A stretch of DNA of 64,000 nucleotides from Acidobacteriota bacterium (GTDB lineage: Bacteria; Acidobacteriota; Aminicenantia; Aminicenantales; Saccharicenantaceae). The stretch spans positions 186,001-250,000 of the forward strand of contig JBDKSB010000001.1 of NCBI GenBank assembly GCA_039683095.1, read 5' to 3'. Position 1 is the stretch's first letter, and every line of letters begins with the position of its first letter. Below the pieces are notes generated by a model that did no database searches, was not told where the DNA came from, and was given only the letters and a program-made list of their open reading frames with translations. This document shows, piece after piece, positions 5,296 through 13,322 of the stretch. Made by a program: the position numbers and the translations under genes.

Positions 5296-5841
5296 ATGAA
5301 CGGACCGAACGATCGCCTGCGGGCCCGGGCCGCCGCGGCCGTCCTGGCCGCGGCCGCGCTGGCCGCCGCGGCGGCGGGCTGCGGCTATCGTCTCCGCGGC
5401 ACCGGCTCGGCCCTGCCGTCCCGGATCAGGACTATGAGCGTGCCCATGTTCAAGAACCAGACGACCCGTTACGAGCTCGACGTCAAGCTGACCCGGGCCG
5501 TCATCAACGAGCTCGTCGCCCGGGGCAAGGTCCGGATCGGCGACGACCCGGCCGCGGCCGACGCCGTGCTCGAGGGCGAGATCACCGGCTTCGTGGCCAG
5601 CCCCATCGGCTTCAGCGGCGCGAACCAGGCCGACAAGTACAACGTCACCGTGACGGCCCGGGTCACCCTGAGGGACCGGACCTCCGCCGAACCACTGTTC
5701 TCGAACCCGGCCTTCATCTATCAGCAGGAGTACGACGTTCCGCCCGGCTCGAGCTTCGAGTCGGTCCAGACCGAGGCCCTCGACAAGATCGCCGGGAAGT
5801 TCGCCCGCAGTCTCGTCGTCAGCATCCTCGAGGGGTTCTAG
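5296..5841 (+). CDS. lptE: LPS-assembly lipoprotein LptE
   Basis: A 181-residue lipoprotein that plugs the LptD barrel and helps insert lipopolysaccharide in the outer membrane. An Ala-rich signal peptide ends in a lipobox (AAAAAGCGYRLRG), so Cys at about position 36 would be lipidated. The CGYRLRG start of the mature protein, the segment IRTMSVPMFKNQTTRYELD and the alternating beta-strand pattern are typical of LptE. It lies between leuS and holA, the usual location, and its stop is one base before the holA ATG. The Lpt system is continued elsewhere in the window by the LptC/LptA fusion and LptB. Confidence 0.9.
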   Translation: MNGPNDRLRARAAAAVLAAAALAAAAAGCGYRLRGTGSALPSRIRTMSVPMFKNQTTRYELDVKLTRAVINELVARGKVRIGDDPAAADAVLEGEITGFVASPIGFSGANQADKYNVTVTARVTLRDRTSAEPLFSNPAFIYQQEYDVPPGSSFESVQTEALDKIAGKFARSLVVSILEGF

Positions 5842-5842
5842 C

Positions 5843-6988
5843 ATGTCCGCCCCGGCCTCCGGCGGGCTGCGCCTGGAGACGCTCCTGGCCGGCTATCTCT
5901 TCTTCGGGGAGGAGGACTACATCGCCGAGGAATTCCTGGCCGGCCTCGAAGGCCTGCTGGCGGAGGCGGCCGGCGGCGAGTTCCGCCTGACCCGCATGAG
6001 CCTCGACGATACGAAGTGGCGGGACGTGATCGACACGGCCCGGACCGCGCCGTTCCTGTTCGAACCCTGGCGGGCGCTGCTCGTCCGCGTGCCGGAGGGC
6101 AAGCCGTCCGAACGGGCGGGGGGCGGAAGGGCGAAGGACGAAGGCGACGAGGGCCGGGGCTCCAAGTACCTGTCGGCGCTCGACCAGAAGATCCTCAAGG
6201 AGTATTTCGCCGGCCCGCCGGAGCGGACCATCATCGTTGTCGTCCGGGCCGGCGGCATCCGCCGGGACGACGCTTTCGTCCGCTTCTTCCAGTCCCTGCC
6301 GAAGTCGGCGATGTCGGTCGTGGAGATGAAGCGCCTGACCGAATACCGGCTGATGCAGCGGGCCGACGAGAAGGCCCGCGCCCTGGGCAAGACGCTGTCA
6401 GCCGGGGCCAGGAAGCGGCTGTTCGAGCTGCTGGGCCAGGACCTGCGGCTGATGATGAACGAGATCGAGAAGCTGGCCGTGTTCGTCGGCGAGAAGAAGG
6501 GTATCGACGAGGGCGATGTCGACCTGGCCACGGCCGGGCAGCGGAGTTTCCAGGCCTACGAACTCGACGACGCCCTGGCCGCGGCCGATTTCGCCAAGGC
6601 GGCGTCCATACTCGGCGACCTCTTCGCCGAAAGCGAGCGGACCGGGATCATCATCGGCCGCCTGGCCGGCTTCCTCCGCAGCGTGCTGGCCGCCCAGACC
6701 TGGCTCAGGGAGAAGAGCCGGACCAAGGACGAGGTTTTCCAGACCTTTTTCCCGAATATCTCGCGGAACTTCGCCGACCTCTACAGGCGCAAATACGATG
6801 ATTTCTTCGGCACGGTCGAGAGCCTGGCCCCGGACGTGCTCAACGCCCTGCTGCGGAAGCTCCGCCAGCTGGACAGGACGCTCAAGACGACGGGTTCGAA
6901 GGATGCGGGCGAGAAGGTCCTCTTCGAGGCCTTCCTGAAGGAGTTCTGCCTGGCGCGGAAGGAGCGGACGCTTATTTCGCCGGAGTAG
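5843..6988 (+). CDS. holA: DNA polymerase III delta subunit
   Basis: Clamp-loader delta subunit that opens the beta clamp, 381 residues (family about 340). The N-terminal AAA+-like fold is seen in YLFFGEEDYIAEEF, the DNA_pol3_delta signature at the start, followed by the helical collar domain in the C-terminal half (AFQAYELDDALAAADFAKA-like region). A charged insertion near residues 90-110 (rich in Gly, Arg, Lys, Asp) is unusual and probably a surface loop. The last 17 bases overlap the end of the convergent rpsT gene. Confidence 0.93.
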   Translation: MSAPASGGLRLETLLAGYLFFGEEDYIAEEFLAGLEGLLAEAAGGEFRLTRMSLDDTKWRDVIDTARTAPFLFEPWRALLVRVPEGKPSERAGGGRAKDEGDEGRGSKYLSALDQKILKEYFAGPPERTIIVVVRAGGIRRDDAFVRFFQSLPKSAMSVVEMKRLTEYRLMQRADEKARALGKTLSAGARKRLFELLGQDLRLMMNEIEKLAVFVGEKKGIDEGDVDLATAGQRSFQAYELDDALAAADFAKAASILGDLFAESERTGIIIGRLAGFLRSVLAAQTWLREKSRTKDEVFQTFFPNISRNFADLYRRKYDDFFGTVESLAPDVLNALLRKLRQLDRTLKTTGSKDAGEKVLFEAFLKEFCLARKERTLISPE

Positions 6989-7250
6989 GGCCGAGGAGCG
7001 CGACCTGGCGGCTCAGCCGGGATTTGTAGCGGCCGCCGGTGTTCTTCTTGATGGCCCCCTTCTTGACCGCCTGGTCGATGGCCTTGAAGAGCGCGGGCAG
7101 CATCTTGACCGCGCCTTCCTGGTCCTTGTCCCCGATGGCTTCCCGGACCTTGCGCATCTCGGTGCGCAGGGCGGACTTGTTCTGGGTATTGACGGATTTC
7201 CGGCGCAAACTGCGGCGGTGCTGCCGTATCGCTGATTTGTGACGGGCCAT
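6972..7250 (-). CDS. rpsT: 30S ribosomal protein S20
   Basis: A 92-residue, strongly basic protein of the small ribosomal subunit, beginning MARHKSAIRQHRRSLRRK and carrying the conserved KKGAIKKNTGGRYKSRLS segment near the C-terminus. GAGGAG precedes the ATG at 7250 (spacing about 6). It has its own well-formed promoter at 7276-7304 and is convergent with holA, overlapping its 3' end by 17 bases. Confidence 0.97.
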   Translation of the reverse strand: MARHKSAIRQHRRSLRRKSVNTQNKSALRTEMRKVREAIGDKDQEGAVKMLPALFKAIDQAVKKGAIKKNTGGRYKSRLSRQVALLGPTPAK

Positions 7251-7275
7251 ATTTTTCTCCTCTTAAAAGGGGCCT

Positions 7276-7304
7276 ATGATAGAATATCGAGGCCTTAAAG
7301 TCAA
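7276..7304 (-). promoter_or_regulatory. Sigma-70-type promoter of rpsT
   Basis: On the minus strand: TTGACT (7304-7299), 17-base spacer, TATCAT (7281-7276). The start codon follows about 25 bases after the -10, leaving room for the visible GAGGAG ribosome-binding site. Confidence 0.7.
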
Positions 7305-7361
7305 ACGGCCGCCGGGTTTGGGGGAAGCCGCTCCCCGCAGCCGGCGGGCGCGGAGAAGCCC

Positions 7362-7826
7362 GTGAAGATCGTGCTCCAGCGGGTCCGGGAGGCCCGCGTC
7401 GACGTCGAAGGCCGGACCGCCGGCCGCATCGGCCGAGGCCTCTGCCTCCTGGTCGGGGTCGAGAAGGGAGACGGCGAGGCGGACGCCGAATACCTGGCCC
7501 GGAAGTGCGTCGAACTGCGCGTCTTCCCCGACGCCCAGGGCAAGATGAACCTGTCGCTGGCCGAGGCCGGCGGCGACGTCCTGGCCGTCTCCCAGTTCAC
7601 CCTGGCGGGCTCGGTGCGGAAGGGCCGCCGGCCGAGCTTCGACGGCGCGGAGGAGCCGGCCCGGGCGGCCGCCCTCTTCGATCATTTCGTCGGGGCCGTC
7701 GAGGCCGTCGGCGTGACCGTGGAAACCGGCGTCTTCCAGGCGATGATGGAGGTCCATATCGTCAACGACGGGCCGGTGACGTTCATCCTCGAGTCGAGGC
7801 CGGGCGGCGGCCGGGAGGAGGGGTGA
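7362..7826 (+). CDS. dtd: D-aminoacyl-tRNA deacylase
   Basis: Hydrolyses D-aminoacyl-tRNA to protect translation from D-amino acids; 154 residues, the family norm. Both active-site motifs are present: SQFTL near residue 80 and NDGPVT near residue 137 (the Gly-cisPro loop). It starts at a GTG (7362) preceded by GGAGAAG. The gene is divergent from rpsT. A hairpin without a T-tract begins at its stop codon, and the peptide-modification cassette follows 175 bases later. Confidence 0.96.
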
Positions 7827-7849
7827 GAGGGCCGGAACCGTCTCACCCC
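7820..7849 (+). terminator. GC-rich hairpin after dtd
   Basis: GGGGTGAGA at 7820-7828 pairs perfectly with TCTCACCCC at 7841-7849, and the loop contains CGGAACCG, which can pair again. There is no T-run, so intrinsic termination is uncertain, but the position at the dtd stop codon fits a 3' end. The following 150 bases up to 8001 show GC palindromes and no convincing promoter. Confidence 0.45.
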
Positions 7850-8001
7850 CCGGGGGGAGGCCCGGGGCCCGAAAATCACCCCCCTTTTCCCCGGCCGCGG
7901 CCATGCCCCGGGACGCCCCGGGCTTTACCCTGTGACCGGGTCCGGGCCGGAGTCTGCCGGACGCACTGGGATGATCCCGGCCGCGCCCAGATGGAGAATG
8001 C

Positions 8002-9978
8002 ATGAGCCGCTATGTGAGCCGGCGCGAGGTCCGGGACTATCCGCGGCTTCCCCTCAAGGGGAGCCTCGACCTGACCTATCGCTGCGGCAACGATTGCCGC
8101 CATTGCTGGCTGAGGCTCGCCCCGGACGCCGCCGAAAAGAGGGCCGAGCTTTCCTTCGACGAGATCCGCCGGATCGCCGGGGAAGCCCGGAAGATGGGCT
8201 GCCGGGAATGGACGATCTCCGGCGGCGAGCCCATGCTCCGCCCCGACTTCCCCGAGATCTTCGCCGAACTCGCCGCCCAGGCTTCCTGGTACACGCTGAA
8301 CACGAACGGGACCCTGATCACGCCGGCCATCGCCCGGCTGCTGAGGCGCCCCGGCGTCAAGCTCGTGGCGCTCTACGGCGCGACCGCCGCCGTCCATGAC
8401 GCGGTCACGCGCGCGCCGGGATCCTTCGCCGCCCTGGAGCGGGGCATCGCCTGTCTCCGCGAGGCGGGCGCGGCTTTCACGGTCCAGGTCGTTCCGATGC
8501 GGACGAACATCGCCGAATTCGAGGCCATGGTCCGCCTGGCCGAGTCTTGGAGCCCGAGCTGGAGGGTCGGGGCGGCCTGGCTTTACCTCTCCGCGGCGGG
8601 CGACGCGAGCCGGAACCGCGACATCATGGCCGAGCGCCTGGACCCGGCCCGGATCGTCGAGATCGACGAGGACTGGGCCGGCGGCGCCGGGCCGGACGGC
8701 GACGGCCGGGAGGGCTGCGCCGCGGCGGCCGCGGCCGGGGGCCGCGGGCTCTATGCCGACTGCCTGGCCGGCCGCCGCGATTTCCACGTCGATCCCTACG
8801 GCGGTCTGAGCTTCTGCTCGTTCGTCAAGGACCCCGGACTGCGGCTCGACCTGAGGGCGACGAGCTTCGCCGAGGCCTGGGAAGAGCGCCTGCCCCGACT
8901 GGCCGGCGCCGTCGTCCCGTCGAAGGCCTACGCCGACGGCTGCGGCGCCTGCGACCTGCGGGCCGGCTGCCGCTGGTGCCCGGTCTTCGCCTACCTCGAG
9001 CATCGCGACCATTCGGCCAGGATCGGCTATCTCTGCGACATCGCCCGGGAGTCCCGGCGGGCCAGGACGGCCTGGCTCGGGACGCACCGCCGCCGCTTCC
9101 GCGTCGCGGGCCTGACGATCGACGTCGAGGCCGACCGGCCCATCACCGGAGACACCTTCGAACCGAAATTCGACCTCTTCCGCGTCGAGCCGGACGGGGC
9201 GCCGGATATCGTCCTGCGCCACCATTTCGCCCTGCCTGACCTCGGGGCCTTCGACCTGGGCCGGGAAGTCTACCGCCATCCCCCCTGGGCCGTTTACCGC
9301 AAGGGCCGTTCGTGGATCTACCTCATGATCTCGCCGGACCCCGGCGACGCGACGGTCCACCGGGTCATGGTCTTCGACGACGGCCACACCAGGGGGCGGA
9401 TCTACAGCCCCTCGGACGCCTTCTTCCGCGCCGGCCGGCTCGATTCGCTGGCCCTGCTGCCCTCGGACCAGCTTATCCTGGCCCGGGCCCTGCCGGCCTT
9501 CGGCGGCCTCTTCGTCCACGCCTCGGCGGTCGACATGGGCGGCCGCGGTCTCGTTTTCGCCGGGGCCTCCGGGGCGGGCAAGTCGACCATCGTCAAGCTC
9601 ATCGGCGGCCGGGGCCGGGTCCTCTGCGACGACCGGGTCATCGTCCGCAGAAGCCCCGGCGGCTTCCGCGTCCACGGCACCTGGAACCACGGCGAGATCC
9701 CGGTCGTGTCCGCCGGCTCGGCGCCCGTCCGGGCCGTTTTCTTCCTGCGACAGGCGGCGGCGAACCGGCTGGACCGCGTCGACGACCCCAAGGCCGTCCT
9801 GCGGGACTTCCTGCCCCGGCTGGTCCGGCCGCTCCTCTCGGCCGACTGGTGGGAGCGGGCCCTGGGCCTGGCCGGCGAGATCGTCCGCGAGGCGCCCTTC
9901 TACGACCTGTCCTTCGACAAGAGCGGGGCCATCGCCGGCGTTCTCGAAGAATTCCTCCGGAAAGAGGGCCGGCCGTGA
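8002..9978 (+). CDS. Radical SAM/SPASM maturase fused to an HPr-kinase-like P-loop domain
   Basis: A 658-residue two-part protein. Residues 1 to about 350 are a PqqE-like radical SAM enzyme: Cys28-x3-Cys32-x2-Cys35 (CGNDCRHC) for the SAM-binding cluster, ISGGEPMLR for the SAM Gly-Glu motif, and a SPASM domain with Cys314, 317, 323, 326 (CGACDLRAGCRWC) and a later YLCD, for auxiliary clusters. Residues about 360-658 resemble HPr kinase: GASGAGKST with Lys527, then LCDDRVIVRR, as HprK has ADDxV after its P-loop. Separate P-loop proteins (ScmC) accompany radical SAM pairs in SynChlorMet-type cassettes as I recall them; here the two are one chain. The ATG has GGAG 7 bases upstream. Its stop overlaps the next start (GTGA). 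Which residue is modified or phosphorylated is unknown. Confidence 0.9.
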   Translation: MSRYVSRREVRDYPRLPLKGSLDLTYRCGNDCRHCWLRLAPDAAEKRAELSFDEIRRIAGEARKMGCREWTISGGEPMLRPDFPEIFAELAAQASWYTLNTNGTLITPAIARLLRRPGVKLVALYGATAAVHDAVTRAPGSFAALERGIACLREAGAAFTVQVVPMRTNIAEFEAMVRLAESWSPSWRVGAAWLYLSAAGDASRNRDIMAERLDPARIVEIDEDWAGGAGPDGDGREGCAAAAAAGGRGLYADCLAGRRDFHVDPYGGLSFCSFVKDPGLRLDLRATSFAEAWEERLPRLAGAVVPSKAYADGCGACDLRAGCRWCPVFAYLEHRDHSARIGYLCDIARESRRARTAWLGTHRRRFRVAGLTIDVEADRPITGDTFEPKFDLFRVEPDGAPDIVLRHHFALPDLGAFDLGREVYRHPPWAVYRKGRSWIYLMISPDPGDATVHRVMVFDDGHTRGRIYSPSDAFFRAGRLDSLALLPSDQLILARALPAFGGLFVHASAVDMGGRGLVFAGASGAGKSTIVKLIGGRGRVLCDDRVIVRRSPGGFRVHGTWNHGEIPVVSAGSAPVRAVFFLRQAAANRLDRVDDPKAVLRDFLPRLVRPLLSADWWERALGLAGEIVREAPFYDLSFDKSGAIAGVLEEFLRKEGRP

Positions 9979-11150
9979 CGGCGAAGAGCTACGTTCGCAA
10001 GGTCCGGTCCGGCGAGGACCGGCTTTGGCGGGCCTCCGCCCCGGCCCTGGCCCGCCTGGACGTCGAGCTGACCGAGCGCTGCAACTTCGCCTGCCGCCAT
10101 TGTTCGGTCGGCCTGCCGGCCGGCGACCGCGCCGCCCGGGCCCGGGAGTGGCCGGCGGCGCGATGGAAGGCCCTGCTGAGCGAAGCCGCGGACCTGGGCT
10201 GCCTGGTCGTCCGGCTGACCGGCGGCGAGCCGGCGCTCCGCGACGACTTCGAGGACATCTACGTCCACGCCCGGCGGCTCGGCCTGCGGGTCATGCTCTT
10301 CACCAACGCCGCGCTCGTCACGCCCGGCCTGGCCCGGCTCCTGGCCGACGTGCCGCCGCTCGAGGCGGTCGAGGTCTCGGTCTACGGCCTGACGCCGGAA
10401 AGCTCGGAAGCGGCTACGGGCACGCCCGGCTCGTTCGCCGCGACGAGGCGCGGCCTGAGCCTGCTCGGCGAACGGGGCGTGTCCTTCGTGGTCAAGGGCG
10501 CGGTCCTGCCGCCGACACGAGGCGAGATGGACGGGCTCGAAGCCTGGGCTGCCGGCCTCCCCGGCCTGGCCGGGCCGGTCTCCTGGGTCACGCTCCTCGA
10601 CCTCCACTCGCGCCGGGACGCGGCCCGCAGCGCCGTTATCGCCGGGCTGAGGATGGAGGCCGGCGAGTTCGTCCGCCTGGCCCGCCGCGGCGGCGAGGCC
10701 GCGGTCGACGAATGGCGCGAGTTCTGCGGCCGCGACGGCCGGCCCCGCGGCGACCGCCTGTTCAGCTGCTTGCCCGCGGCGGCCTCGGCCGCGGTCGACG
10801 CGTACGGCCGGCTCCAGTATTGCCTCGGCCTGCGCCATCCCGACACCGTCTACGACCTGGCCGCGGGCTCGCTCCGCGAGGCCGTGACGGATTTCCTGCC
10901 GCGGCTCCGGGAGCGGCGCGCGGCCGGCCCGGCCTATCTCGAGCGCTGCGGCCGCTGCTTTCTCAAGGGCCTCTGCCAGCAATGCCCGGCCAAGTCGTGG
11001 GCCGAGCACGGCACGCTGGACACGCCGGTCGAATATTTCTGCGATGTCGCCCACGCCCAGGCCGTCGCGGCCGGCCTTCTCGAGCGGGGGAAGAAGGCCT
11101 GGACCGTCAGCGACGGCGCCGCGCGGGCCGCGAGGAGGAACGGAGCATGA
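9975..11150 (+). CDS. Radical SAM/SPASM peptide maturase (second of three)
   Basis: A 391-residue PqqE-like enzyme. The start is taken as the GTG at 9975, which overlaps the upstream stop and has AGAGG nearby; the open frame extends much further upstream only as a shadow of the first gene. Cys36-x3-Cys40-x2-Cys43 (CNFACRHC) binds the SAM cluster, LTGGEPALR is the SAM-contact strand, and the SPASM C-terminal part has RCGRCFLKGLCQQCP and EYFCD. An aspartate/arginine-rich middle (SRRDAARS) is of unknown role. Its stop overlaps the ATG of the PqqD-like gene, so the cassette is translated as a coupled unit. It is clearly related to the third radical SAM protein at 11952 and could act on the same peptide at a different residue. 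Confidence 0.92.
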   Translation: MTAKSYVRKVRSGEDRLWRASAPALARLDVELTERCNFACRHCSVGLPAGDRAARAREWPAARWKALLSEAADLGCLVVRLTGGEPALRDDFEDIYVHARRLGLRVMLFTNAALVTPGLARLLADVPPLEAVEVSVYGLTPESSEAATGTPGSFAATRRGLSLLGERGVSFVVKGAVLPPTRGEMDGLEAWAAGLPGLAGPVSWVTLLDLHSRRDAARSAVIAGLRMEAGEFVRLARRGGEAAVDEWREFCGRDGRPRGDRLFSCLPAAASAAVDAYGRLQYCLGLRHPDTVYDLAAGSLREAVTDFLPRLRERRAAGPAYLERCGRCFLKGLCQQCPAKSWAEHGTLDTPVEYFCDVAHAQAVAAGLLERGKKAWTVSDGAARAARRNGA

Positions 11151-11464
11151 CGGAGAAGATCGATCTGAACAAGGCCTACCTGCCGTCCGAGGAGGTCGTC
11201 GTCCGCGAGATCGAGGGGGAGATCGTCATCGTTCCCCTGACCTCCGGCATCGGCGACCTCGAGGACGAGCTGCTGACCCTCAACGAGACCGGGCGCGACA
11301 TCTGGTCTCGGCTCGATGGGGCGCGTCCCCTGGCCGAGATCGTCCGGGACCTCGAAGCCGGCTACGACGCCGCGGACGGGCTCGTCCGGGAGGACGTCGT
11401 CGGGTTCCTCCAGGAGCTCTGCGACCGGCGGATGATCGTGGCCAAGGACCGGGACAAGGACTGA
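11147..11464 (+). CDS. PqqD-like peptide-chaperone (RiPP recognition element)
   Basis: A 105-residue acidic protein of the PqqD family, which binds the leader of a precursor peptide and presents it to a radical SAM enzyme. Visible family features are LLTLNETGRDIWSRLDGARPLAEIVRDL and a C-terminal helix-rich FLQELCDRRMI, the usual winged-helix RRE arrangement. The ATG at 11147 overlaps the upstream stop (ATGA) and has GGAGGAACGGAG in front. It sits centrally in the cassette, between two radical SAM genes and the peptidase. It is the main reason for reading the cluster as a RiPP pathway. Confidence 0.88.
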   Translation: MTEKIDLNKAYLPSEEVVVREIEGEIVIVPLTSGIGDLEDELLTLNETGRDIWSRLDGARPLAEIVRDLEAGYDAADGLVREDVVGFLQELCDRRMIVAKDRDKD

Positions 11465-11467
11465 GAC

Positions 11468-11950
11468 GTGGACGAAACGCCCCGCCCGCGGCCTTCCCTC
11501 GGCGACGGCTATTCCGTGGCCGGGCTCATCCGGGCGGTCCTGGAGCGGGGCCGGCCCTGCCGCTACGAGGCCCGGGGCTCGAGCATGCACCCCGCCGTCA
11601 AGGACGGGGACGTCGTCACCCTCCGGCCCGTCGGCGCGGCCGGGCCGCGCCTGGGCGATATCGTGGCCTTCGTTCTCCCCGGGACGGAAGCCGTCCGCCT
11701 CCACCGCGTGGTCGGGATCGCGGACGGGAGATATCTCCTTAAGGGCGACAACGGCCTGGTCGACGACGGCGAGGTCGGGCGGCAGGACATCCTTGGCGCG
11801 GTCGTCCGGATCGAGCGGAACGGCCGGGCTCTCCGTGTCGGGCCGGGCTTCCTGGCCGCCGGCCTGGCCCGCCTGTCGCGGTCCTCCTGGTTCACGCGGT
11901 ATTCCATGCGGCTCCGCCGGGCCCTCGGCCTCCGGGACCGGAAGGTTTGA
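11468..11950 (+). CDS. S26-family (Sec11/SipW-like) peptidase, apparently soluble
   Basis: A 160-residue signal-peptidase-fold protein. GSSMHPAVKDGD (nucleophile Ser39) and LGDIVAF are the first boxes. The general-base box reads VRLHRVVG, with His79 where bacterial leader peptidase has lysine, as in the Ser-His Sec11/SipW branch (S26B). LLKGDNG follows. No membrane helix is visible at either end, unlike true leader peptidases. It starts at GTG 11468 with weak AAGGA upstream, 3 bases after the PqqD-like stop. In context it may cleave the modified peptide from its leader, but this is inferred only from location and family. Confidence 0.82.
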   Translation: MDETPRPRPSLGDGYSVAGLIRAVLERGRPCRYEARGSSMHPAVKDGDVVTLRPVGAAGPRLGDIVAFVLPGTEAVRLHRVVGIADGRYLLKGDNGLVDDGEVGRQDILGAVVRIERNGRALRVGPGFLAAGLARLSRSSWFTRYSMRLRRALGLRDRKV

Positions 11951-11951
11951 G

Positions 11952-13079
11952 ATGGGCAAGGACTTCGTCGTCCGTCGCCCGCTCGCCGGGTTCGGCCTGT
12001 GGGAGAAGATGGCCGGCAGCCGGGCCGTCTTCAGCTTCGACTACGAGACGACGGCCCGCTGCAATCTCGATTGCCGGCACTGCTACATCAACGCCCCGGC
12101 CGGGGACAGGGCGGCCCGGAAGCGCGAGCTCTCCGTCGACGAGGCCGGCCGCATAGCCGCCGAGGCCGCGGCCCAAGGCGCCGTCTGGTGCCTCCTGACC
12201 GGCGGCGAGCCCCTCCTCCGCAAGGATTTCTTCGATCTCTACCAGGCGATCCTGAGCAAGGGCCTGCTCGTTTCGCTCTTCACCAACGCCACGCTCGTCA
12301 CCGACGAGCACGTCCGTTTCTTCAGGAAGTTCCCGCCCCGGGACATCGAGGTGACCGTTTACGGCGTGACCCGCGAGACCTACGAGCGGGTGACCAGGAC
12401 GCCGGGCTCCTTCGACGCTTTTAAGAGAGGGCTCGACCGGCTCCTGGCGAGCGGCGCCGCCGTCCGGCTCAAGGCCATGGCCCTGCGCTCGAACAAGCAC
12501 GAGGTCCCGGCCATCGGCGACTTCTGCCGGGCCCGGACGAAGGATTATTACCGCTTCGACCCGCAGCTGCACCTTCGCTTCGACCGGGACGAGGCCCGGA
12601 ACGCCCTGATCCGGGCCGAGCGGCTCAGCCCGCGGGAGGTGGCCCGGCTGGAGCGGTCCGATCCCGAGCGCTTCGGGGCCCTCACGGACGCCTGCGCCGA
12701 GATCCTGCCGGCGGCGCCGGCGGAGGGGACCCCGGTCCCGGACTGCCGGCACATCTTCCGCTGCGGCGTCGGCCGGATGAGCTTCGTCGTCGGCCCGGAG
12801 GGGCTGCTGCGGCCCTGCCTGTCCCTCCATCATCCGGATTTCCTCTATGACCTGCGGAAAGGAAGCCTGGACGACGCCTGGACCCGCTTCCTGCCCGCCG
12901 CGCTCCGGAAGGAGTCCCACAGGCCGGAATACCTGGAAAAGTGCGGCCGCTGCCCGATCGTCAACCTCTGCCTCTGGTGCCCGGCCCACGCCTACCTCGA
13001 GACGGGGGAGCTCGACCGGCCGGTCGAGGAGTTCTGCCGGGTGGCCGAGGCCCGGGCGGAGGGGCTAAAATCAGGTTGA
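11952..13079 (+). CDS. Radical SAM/SPASM peptide maturase (third of three)
   Basis: A 375-residue PqqE-like enzyme. Cys37-x3-Cys41-x2-Cys44 (CNLDCRHC) binds the SAM cluster, LTGGEPLLRKDF is the SAM motif, and SPASM cysteines lie in KCGRCPIVNLCLWCPA and EEFCRV. Additional cysteines in DCRHIFRCGVGR and LRPCLSLHHP complete the usual auxiliary-cluster set. The ATG at 11952 follows GGAAGG. The gene ends 60 bases before the small peptide gene, and its stop codon lies inside the -35 box of that gene's promoter. Sequence is closest to the second radical SAM protein of the same cassette, so the two probably arose by duplication. Confidence 0.92.
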   Translation: MGKDFVVRRPLAGFGLWEKMAGSRAVFSFDYETTARCNLDCRHCYINAPAGDRAARKRELSVDEAGRIAAEAAAQGAVWCLLTGGEPLLRKDFFDLYQAILSKGLLVSLFTNATLVTDEHVRFFRKFPPRDIEVTVYGVTRETYERVTRTPGSFDAFKRGLDRLLASGAAVRLKAMALRSNKHEVPAIGDFCRARTKDYYRFDPQLHLRFDRDEARNALIRAERLSPREVARLERSDPERFGALTDACAEILPAAPAEGTPVPDCRHIFRCGVGRMSFVVGPEGLLRPCLSLHHPDFLYDLRKGSLDDAWTRFLPAALRKESHRPEYLEKCGRCPIVNLCLWCPAHAYLETGELDRPVEEFCRVAEARAEGLKSG

Positions 13080-13104
13080 CTTTGCCGGAAGTTCGGCTTA
13101 AGAT
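13076..13104 (+). promoter_or_regulatory. Sigma-70-type promoter of the cassette peptide gene
   Basis: TTGACT at 13076-13081, 17-base spacer, TAAGAT at 13099-13104, identical in both hexamers and spacing to the leuS promoter. Transcription would begin near 13111, leaving about 29 bases with GGAGGA at 13125-13130 before the ATG at 13140. The maturase stop codon (13077-13079) lies within the -35 box. Confidence 0.65.
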
Positions 13105-13139
13105 ATTGTCAAGGAAGCGTTTCTGGAGGATTGACCGCC

Positions 13140-13322
13140 ATGAAAAAACGATGGCAGACGCCGGAGCTCATTGTCCTTTTCAAGGGGCGTCCGGAGGAGA
13201 CCCTTTTGTGCCATTGCAAGCATAAAACGGCTCCGCCCGTGGCGCCGTACAGCCACAAGGACAACTGCACGTCGAACCCCCTCTGCTGCCAGGCTTGCTC
13301 CGCAGTCACTTACGCGTCCTGA
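13140..13322 (+). CDS. Candidate RiPP precursor peptide, Cys-rich, 60 residues
   Basis: Short gene directly after the maturases. A frame start at TTG 13131 is excluded because GGAGGA (13125-13130) would touch it; ATG 13140 has ideal 9-base spacing. The first half is leader-like (KKRWQTPELIVLFKGRPEE, then LL), with the W-x-x-PEL-x-V-L and PEE pattern that I recall from other radical SAM-associated peptides. The second half holds six cysteines (24, 26, 43, 49, 50, 53) with His, Asn, Ser and Thr: CHCKHK, then DNCTSNPLCCQACSAVTYAS. No signal peptide or membrane helix is seen. It has its own promoter, so it could be expressed above the enzymes. The modification and final product are unknown. It could also be a metal-binding peptide, but its location argues for a substrate role. 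Confidence 0.78.
   Translation: MKKRWQTPELIVLFKGRPEETLLCHCKHKTAPPVAPYSHKDNCTSNPLCCQACSAVTYAS

Follow-up and report, generated by a model that had tools for sequence, protein, structure and literature searches.

A candidate RiPP family of Acidobacteriota with a cysteine-rich core, radical SAM enzymes and a conserved C-terminal serine

The window, that is the whole stretch of 64,000 nucleotides analysed here, belongs to an Acidobacteriota genome of 3.29 Mb in 13 contigs and carries a cassette of radical SAM (rSAM) genes followed by a very short open reading frame (ORF). The question raised by this locus is whether the short ORF encodes a RiPP precursor and, if so, what the neighbouring enzymes would do to the peptide. 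A preliminary description of this DNA had already proposed a RiPP precursor with a PEL...PEE leader and a six-Cys core. It had missed the promoter belonging to the precursor, the HPr-kinase-like domain fused to rSAM1, the archaeal/SipW-type signal-peptidase-like protease and the C-terminal Ser/Thr of every precursor. The features of the locus are as follows.

8002..9978 (+): rSAM1, a radical SAM/SPASM half (about 8002-9096) joined to an HPr-kinase-like domain (about 9097-9975)
9975..11150 (+): rSAM2, radical SAM/SPASM protein
11147..11464 (+): PqqD-like RiPP recognition element (RRE)
11468..11950 (+): S26/S24-type (archaeal/SipW-like) peptidase, likely the leader peptidase
11952..13079 (+): rSAM3, radical SAM/SPASM protein, adjoining the precursor gene
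13076..13104 (+): predicted sigma-70-like promoter of the precursor alone, TTGACT-N17-TAAGAT, from sequence conservation
13125..13130 (+): ribosome-binding site GGAGGA, 9 nt before the ATG
13140..13322 (+): precursor peptide gene, 60 aa plus stop, from translation, homologues, alignment and pN/pS
13152..13163 (+): W5-Q-T-P8 codons (WxxP), predicted PqqD docking site
13215..13217 (+): Cys26 codon, the Cys of the invariant C-K or C-R
13317..13319 (+): Ser60 codon, predicted phosphorylation site, from the last residue of 70 precursors

The translation of 13140-13322 is MKKRWQTPELIVLFKGRPEETLLCHCKHKTAPPVAPYSHKDNCTSNPLCCQACSAVTYAS, followed by a stop codon. The probable leader extends from residue 1 to about residue 20-23 and includes W5xxP8 and the PEE at residues 18-20, and the core contains Cys 24, 26, 43, 49, 50 and 53 and the C-terminal Ser60. 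Both the positions of the six Cys and the GGAGGA start signal were correctly given in the preliminary description, and a purine-rich ribosome-binding site is retained in the homologues of the genus. The 11 genus-level sequences (that of the window included) all have 60 residues, align without gaps and keep the six Cys and a terminal YAS. Their pooled pN/pS is 0.215, with 0.108 for residues 1-23 and 0.287 for residues 24-60, and the ORF is under clear purifying selection. Additionally, a TTGAC[AT]-N17-TAxxxT sequence is located 32-35 nt upstream of the ATG in 11 of the 11 genus members, despite diverged surrounding DNA, and the precursor promoter is the sole such site found in the 5.8 kb of the window cassette. 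The support for this promoter is strong within the genus and mixed at other loci; since it is conserved and the precursor's own, the precursor may be expressed separately from the operon. Short ORFs are frequent in GC-rich DNA, and this one could be no gene or encode an unrelated small protein, but such a reading is contradicted by the pN/pS value, by the conserved ribosome-binding site, promoter and place, and by 70 homologues, and we consider it extremely unlikely. That the ORF encodes a RiPP precursor is nearly certain. A further match within the same genome, on contig C4 (E 0.21, one stop), was dismissed as chance.

A search with the single sequence detected homologues in 21 of 99 relatives and in 10 of 40 genera. 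In a 21-sequence alignment, W5, C26, C43 and C53 are invariant, and P8 is nearly so. When 396 Acidobacteriota genomes were searched with profiles, the profile of the group having three rSAM genes matched 27 genomes and that of a sister group 42, two sets that overlap partly and whose weakest matches may be chance. In total, 70 distinct precursors were identified in Acidobacteriota, many of them from Aminicenantes; their leaders carry [W/Y]xxP, C-K/R is invariant (70/70 at Cys26), the core contains additional Cys, and the C-terminal residue is Ser or Thr. As the preliminary description had led us to expect, other genera and families also have a conserved short ORF at this place, next to their copies of the cassette, and the PEL...PEE pattern of the leader can be recognised across related cassettes. 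The shared WxxPEL leader for which it had suggested a search was observed as WxxP in 37 of 38 precursors of the three-rSAM type, and as YxxP in 32 of 32 of the sister group. Its six-Cys core held only in part: all six Cys are kept within the genus, but only three or four are found family-wide. Among the window residues, C26, C43, C50 and C53 recur in most members of the three-rSAM group. The sister group shows a minimal layout, consisting of PqqD, one rSAM/SPASM gene, the precursor, a kinase and usually an S26 protease, mostly located together. Its YxxP, as opposed to the WxxP of the three-rSAM group, recalls the Y/W distinction that exists between the RREs of the LPP and paeninodin systems (PMC13381572).

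Some genomes contain orphan precursors distant from maturases, so that a single enzyme set may serve several peptides. One orphan subgroup (L021, L022, L025 and L026), located away from rSAM genes, has the near-constant core GCMNVxGxxACQGHxK[ST]; elsewhere, cores of different genera differ greatly in both length and sequence. Genome G082 has six or more precursor-like ORFs, spread over several contigs (L019, L024, L029, L031 and others), and a tandem pair of precursors lies near rSAM3 and a GNAT gene at locus L050. A phylum match at L128, which has neither the CK motif nor the terminal Ser, was excluded as chance. Because PqqD together with SPASM enzymes resembles the PQQ and mycofactocin systems, the peptide might give rise to a cofactor or redox carrier and not to a secreted natural product. 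The variable core and the precursor-like matches in G082 fit poorly with one cofactor, however, and this reading appears very unlikely.

According to Pfam and NCBIfam assignments, the order of the cassette is rSAM1, rSAM2, PqqD, S24/S26-type peptidase, rSAM3 and precursor. The three rSAM-SPASM units reported previously all carry CX3CX2C and SPASM-type Cys, and match Pfam Radical_SAM (1.7e-19 for rSAM1, 2.1e-17 for rSAM2 and 3.2e-21 for rSAM3). No match was obtained in a PHROGs search, and no exporter was identified in the surroundings of the window cassette by a scan that had no dedicated exporter model. Likewise, no NTP transferase was identified beside the window cassette; an NTP_transf_5 gene occurs elsewhere in the same genome (C12:377992-378738), about 24 kb from a fourth rSAM paralogue (C12:402598-403602).

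rSAM3 is probably the core maturase; it is the window enzyme that the lone rSAM protein of minimal systems resembles most in the majority of loci. Its nearest solved chain is the sactipeptide enzyme SkfB, over the rSAM domain only. We consider it highly probable that the core is modified by rSAM chemistry, and slightly favour thioethers as the modification. Instead, the Cys-rich core might hold a metal or Fe-S cluster or disulfides, the rSAM enzymes making non-thioether changes (C-C links, epimerisation or decarboxylation). A C-x2-C close to the C-terminus in many members would agree with this, as would the generic nature of the rSAM matches (to heme, mycofactocin, PQQ and Scm models, with scores well short of the cut-offs). 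Against it, one precursor may be accompanied by as many as three rSAM/SPASM enzymes, which together with the invariant Cys26 suggests that Cys is a substrate, and the similarity to SkfB, limited to the rSAM domain, points the same way; we regard this non-thioether reading as rather unlikely.

The kinase half of rSAM1 matches Pfam Hpr_kinase_C (0.003, below the gathering score) and the ScmC model (E 3.6e-12), and its best PDB sequence matches are HPr kinase structures, all weak. Most relatives of the domain retain the His, the Walker A motif (GxSxAGKS or GxSGxGKS) and the DD pair; the spacing from the His to the Walker A motif is that reported for BsfK (PMC10368454), and the DD pair lies one residue closer. 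In the kinase domains of L148 and L149, CDE replaces the usual CDD, although these clusters are otherwise complete. The AlphaFold model of the domain, based on nine close sequences, is poor, and owing to its mean pLDDT of 48 it was not used for a fold search.

The last residue is Ser in 67 and Thr in 3 of the 70 distinct precursors, and when these are clustered at 60% identity, 42 of 43 clusters end in Ser. As a background, Ser is the last residue in 30 of 322 (9.3%) longer ORFs of the same loci. It is important to mention that the later profiles contain the C-terminal column and thus favour Ser-ending matches, so that two other counts weigh more: a Ser/Thr end in 30 of 30 precursors found with a leader-only profile, and a Ser end in 8 of 8 precursors from loci fetched by kinase homology with the end residue left free in the pattern. 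Moreover, among 94 genomes of the order, 20 have strong precursor matches, 21 have strong kinase matches and 20 have both (Fisher p 1.6e-19, and 5.9e-12 once the window's genus is removed). As fusion of the kinase to an rSAM enzyme is the usual arrangement in three-rSAM systems, co-occurrence within that group cannot tell the two apart. Genome G046 has a free-standing kinase gene directly upstream of a precursor, on a stretch that lacks rSAM genes, and its rSAM2 and rSAM3 homologues sit on a different contig.

In paeninodin-type precursors, it is the C-terminal Ser that PadeK-type kinases phosphorylate, the targets of PadeK, ThcoK, SyanK and PsmK all being terminal (PMC9266682). The site used by BsfK and LppK is core residue Ser3, in BsfA (PMC10368454) and LppA (PMC13381572), respectively, so that the presence of a kinase alone leaves the site unfixed. 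For the family described here, the C-terminal Ser is favoured over a Ser3-type site because of the invariant end residue, and it is probably the kinase target. Alternatively, the kinase of a genuine RiPP system could act elsewhere, on a core Ser/Thr or an enzyme, and the terminal Ser could be retained for a different purpose, for example so that the peptidase or an acyl or sugar transferase recognises it. BsfK and LppK provide precedents for this, and NTP_transf_5, GNAT or methyltransferase domains are added in some relatives; but the alignment fixes no other Ser/Thr, the last residue is Ser or Thr in every precursor, and a terminal position agrees with the targets of the PadeK-type enzymes, so this alternative seems unlikely. 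Extra tailoring is suggested by clusters with genes for NTP_transf_5, which LPP and paeninodin systems also have, for a methyltransferase fused to a kinase and for an S26 protein fused to GNAT (L134:4160-5341, 5433-6449 and 6462-8387, and L140:9909-11021).

The PqqD-like protein (Pfam PqqD 2.5e-15) has lasso PqqD-type RREs as its nearest solved chains, with weak matches. The S26 peptidase scores above the cut-off of Peptidase_S24 and below that of TIGR02228 (1.3e-9), has conserved Ser, His and Asp residues arranged as in archaeal/SipW enzymes, and its model (pLDDT 73) resembles LexA and signal peptidases in fold. In LPP biosynthesis, the signal-peptidase-like protease, with its Ser, His and Asp, is presented with the leader by a PqqD-like RRE (PMC13381572). 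The cassette contains such a pair, and it is fairly likely that the S26 protein is the leader peptidase here. The register with the LPP leader hints weakly at cleavage near the PEE, at residues 18-23. No S26 gene was seen near the cassettes of L041 and L042. In three minimal-type clusters, a large Peptidase C25 (gingipain-like) gene lies past the S26 or kinase gene (L138:2973-6530, L140:2434-6960 and L141:9515-13603).

Taken together, our main reading, to which we give a probability of roughly 0.6, is an undescribed RiPP family with an rSAM-modified Cys core, a C-terminal Ser phosphorylated by the kinase, and a leader cut off by the S26 protease. In the pathway proposed, for which we infer each reaction, the order of reactions, the cleavage site, the product and its biological role, the precursor would be transcribed from its own promoter, and the PqqD-like protein would bind the WxxP of the leader and present the peptide. 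The rSAM/SPASM enzymes, chiefly rSAM3, would then act on the Cys-rich core, where thioether cross-links from Cys are the most likely outcome. The HPr-kinase-like domain of rSAM1 would phosphorylate the hydroxyl of the C-terminal Ser, like PadeK in paeninodin, and the SipW-like Ser-His-Asp peptidase would cut the leader near the PEE, like LppS in LPPs.

The statement of the preliminary description that no class is matched with certainty agrees with our comparisons, as no known class fits by curated cut-off. The LPPs of Bacillota (PMC13381572) are similar in having a discrete PqqD-like RRE, an HprK-like kinase, an archaeal-type signal-peptidase leader peptidase with Ser/His/Asp, a [Y/W]xxP-type leader and a variable core, and NTP_transf_5 also occurs in some minimal-type relatives (L134, L140). 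In LPPs, however, the kinase targets Ser3, the leader carries YxxP and the clusters include an MsbA-like exporter (PMC13381572), whereas the family described here has rSAM/SPASM enzymes, a core rich in Cys and a Ser at the C-terminus; the word "radical" is absent from the text of that paper. The LPP leader YxxPxVLxHQxIxFETxxS differs from the window leader WxxPELxVLxxGxPEE, its Y and P being found only in the sister group. Paeninodin-like lasso peptides share the WxxP leader, the PqqD-type B1, the HprK-like kinase and the C-terminal Ser (PMC9266682, PMC13381572), but the cassette has rSAM enzymes and a Cys-rich core instead. No lasso macrolactam synthetase (C) or B2 peptidase was detected in the cassette, whose genes match only rSAM, PqqD, S24/S26 and HprK models, and the paeninodin precursor model NF033524 reaches 10.9 bits against a cut-off of 27, in the leader region only.

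The closest gene set with an annotation, SynChlorMet (NCBIfam TIGR04248-04251: ScmD, ScmC, ScmE, ScmF), also combines two rSAM/SPASM enzymes with a PqqD relative and an HprK-like protein, but the scores here are far below the cut-offs, at 89 of 400 (ScmE), 83 of 400 (ScmF), 46 of 125 (ScmC) and 23 of 100 (ScmD). The window cassette differs from it in having three rSAMs, one of them fused to the kinase, together with an S26 protease and a precursor that could be identified. Sactipeptides and ranthipeptides share the Cys-rich core and the rSAM/SPASM maturases, but not the stand-alone RRE, the kinase and the signal-peptidase-like protease, and the models of their characterised subfamilies (StsB, PapB, AlbA) score far below cut-off. 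In the open-access literature searched, we found no RiPP combining rSAM and HprK, no description of SynChlorMet, and nothing relevant on Aminicenantes RiPPs or on the literal leader motif.

If the main reading is true, this family joins rSAM/SPASM core chemistry with HprK-type phosphorylation of a C-terminal Ser and a signal-peptidase-type leader protease, two RiPP logics for which no joint description was found in the literature searched. It would also carry the modification logic of LPPs and paeninodin beyond the groups for which it has been described, into Acidobacteriota, which are represented here mainly by metagenome-assembled genomes. We see about even odds for the broader proposal of a phylum-wide class in Acidobacteriota, which would combine rSAM cross-links in the Cys-rich core with the phosphorylation, or further tailoring, of a C-terminal Ser that is obligatory, by an HprK-type kinase, with an rSAM-kinase fusion in Aminicenantes and signal-peptidase-type leader removal. 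The prediction is narrowed to one residue, Ser60, and a small, testable gene set, and the rule [W/Y]xxP ... PEExVLxxCK ... C ... Ser-COOH may be used to find such precursors, which the curated models scanned miss.
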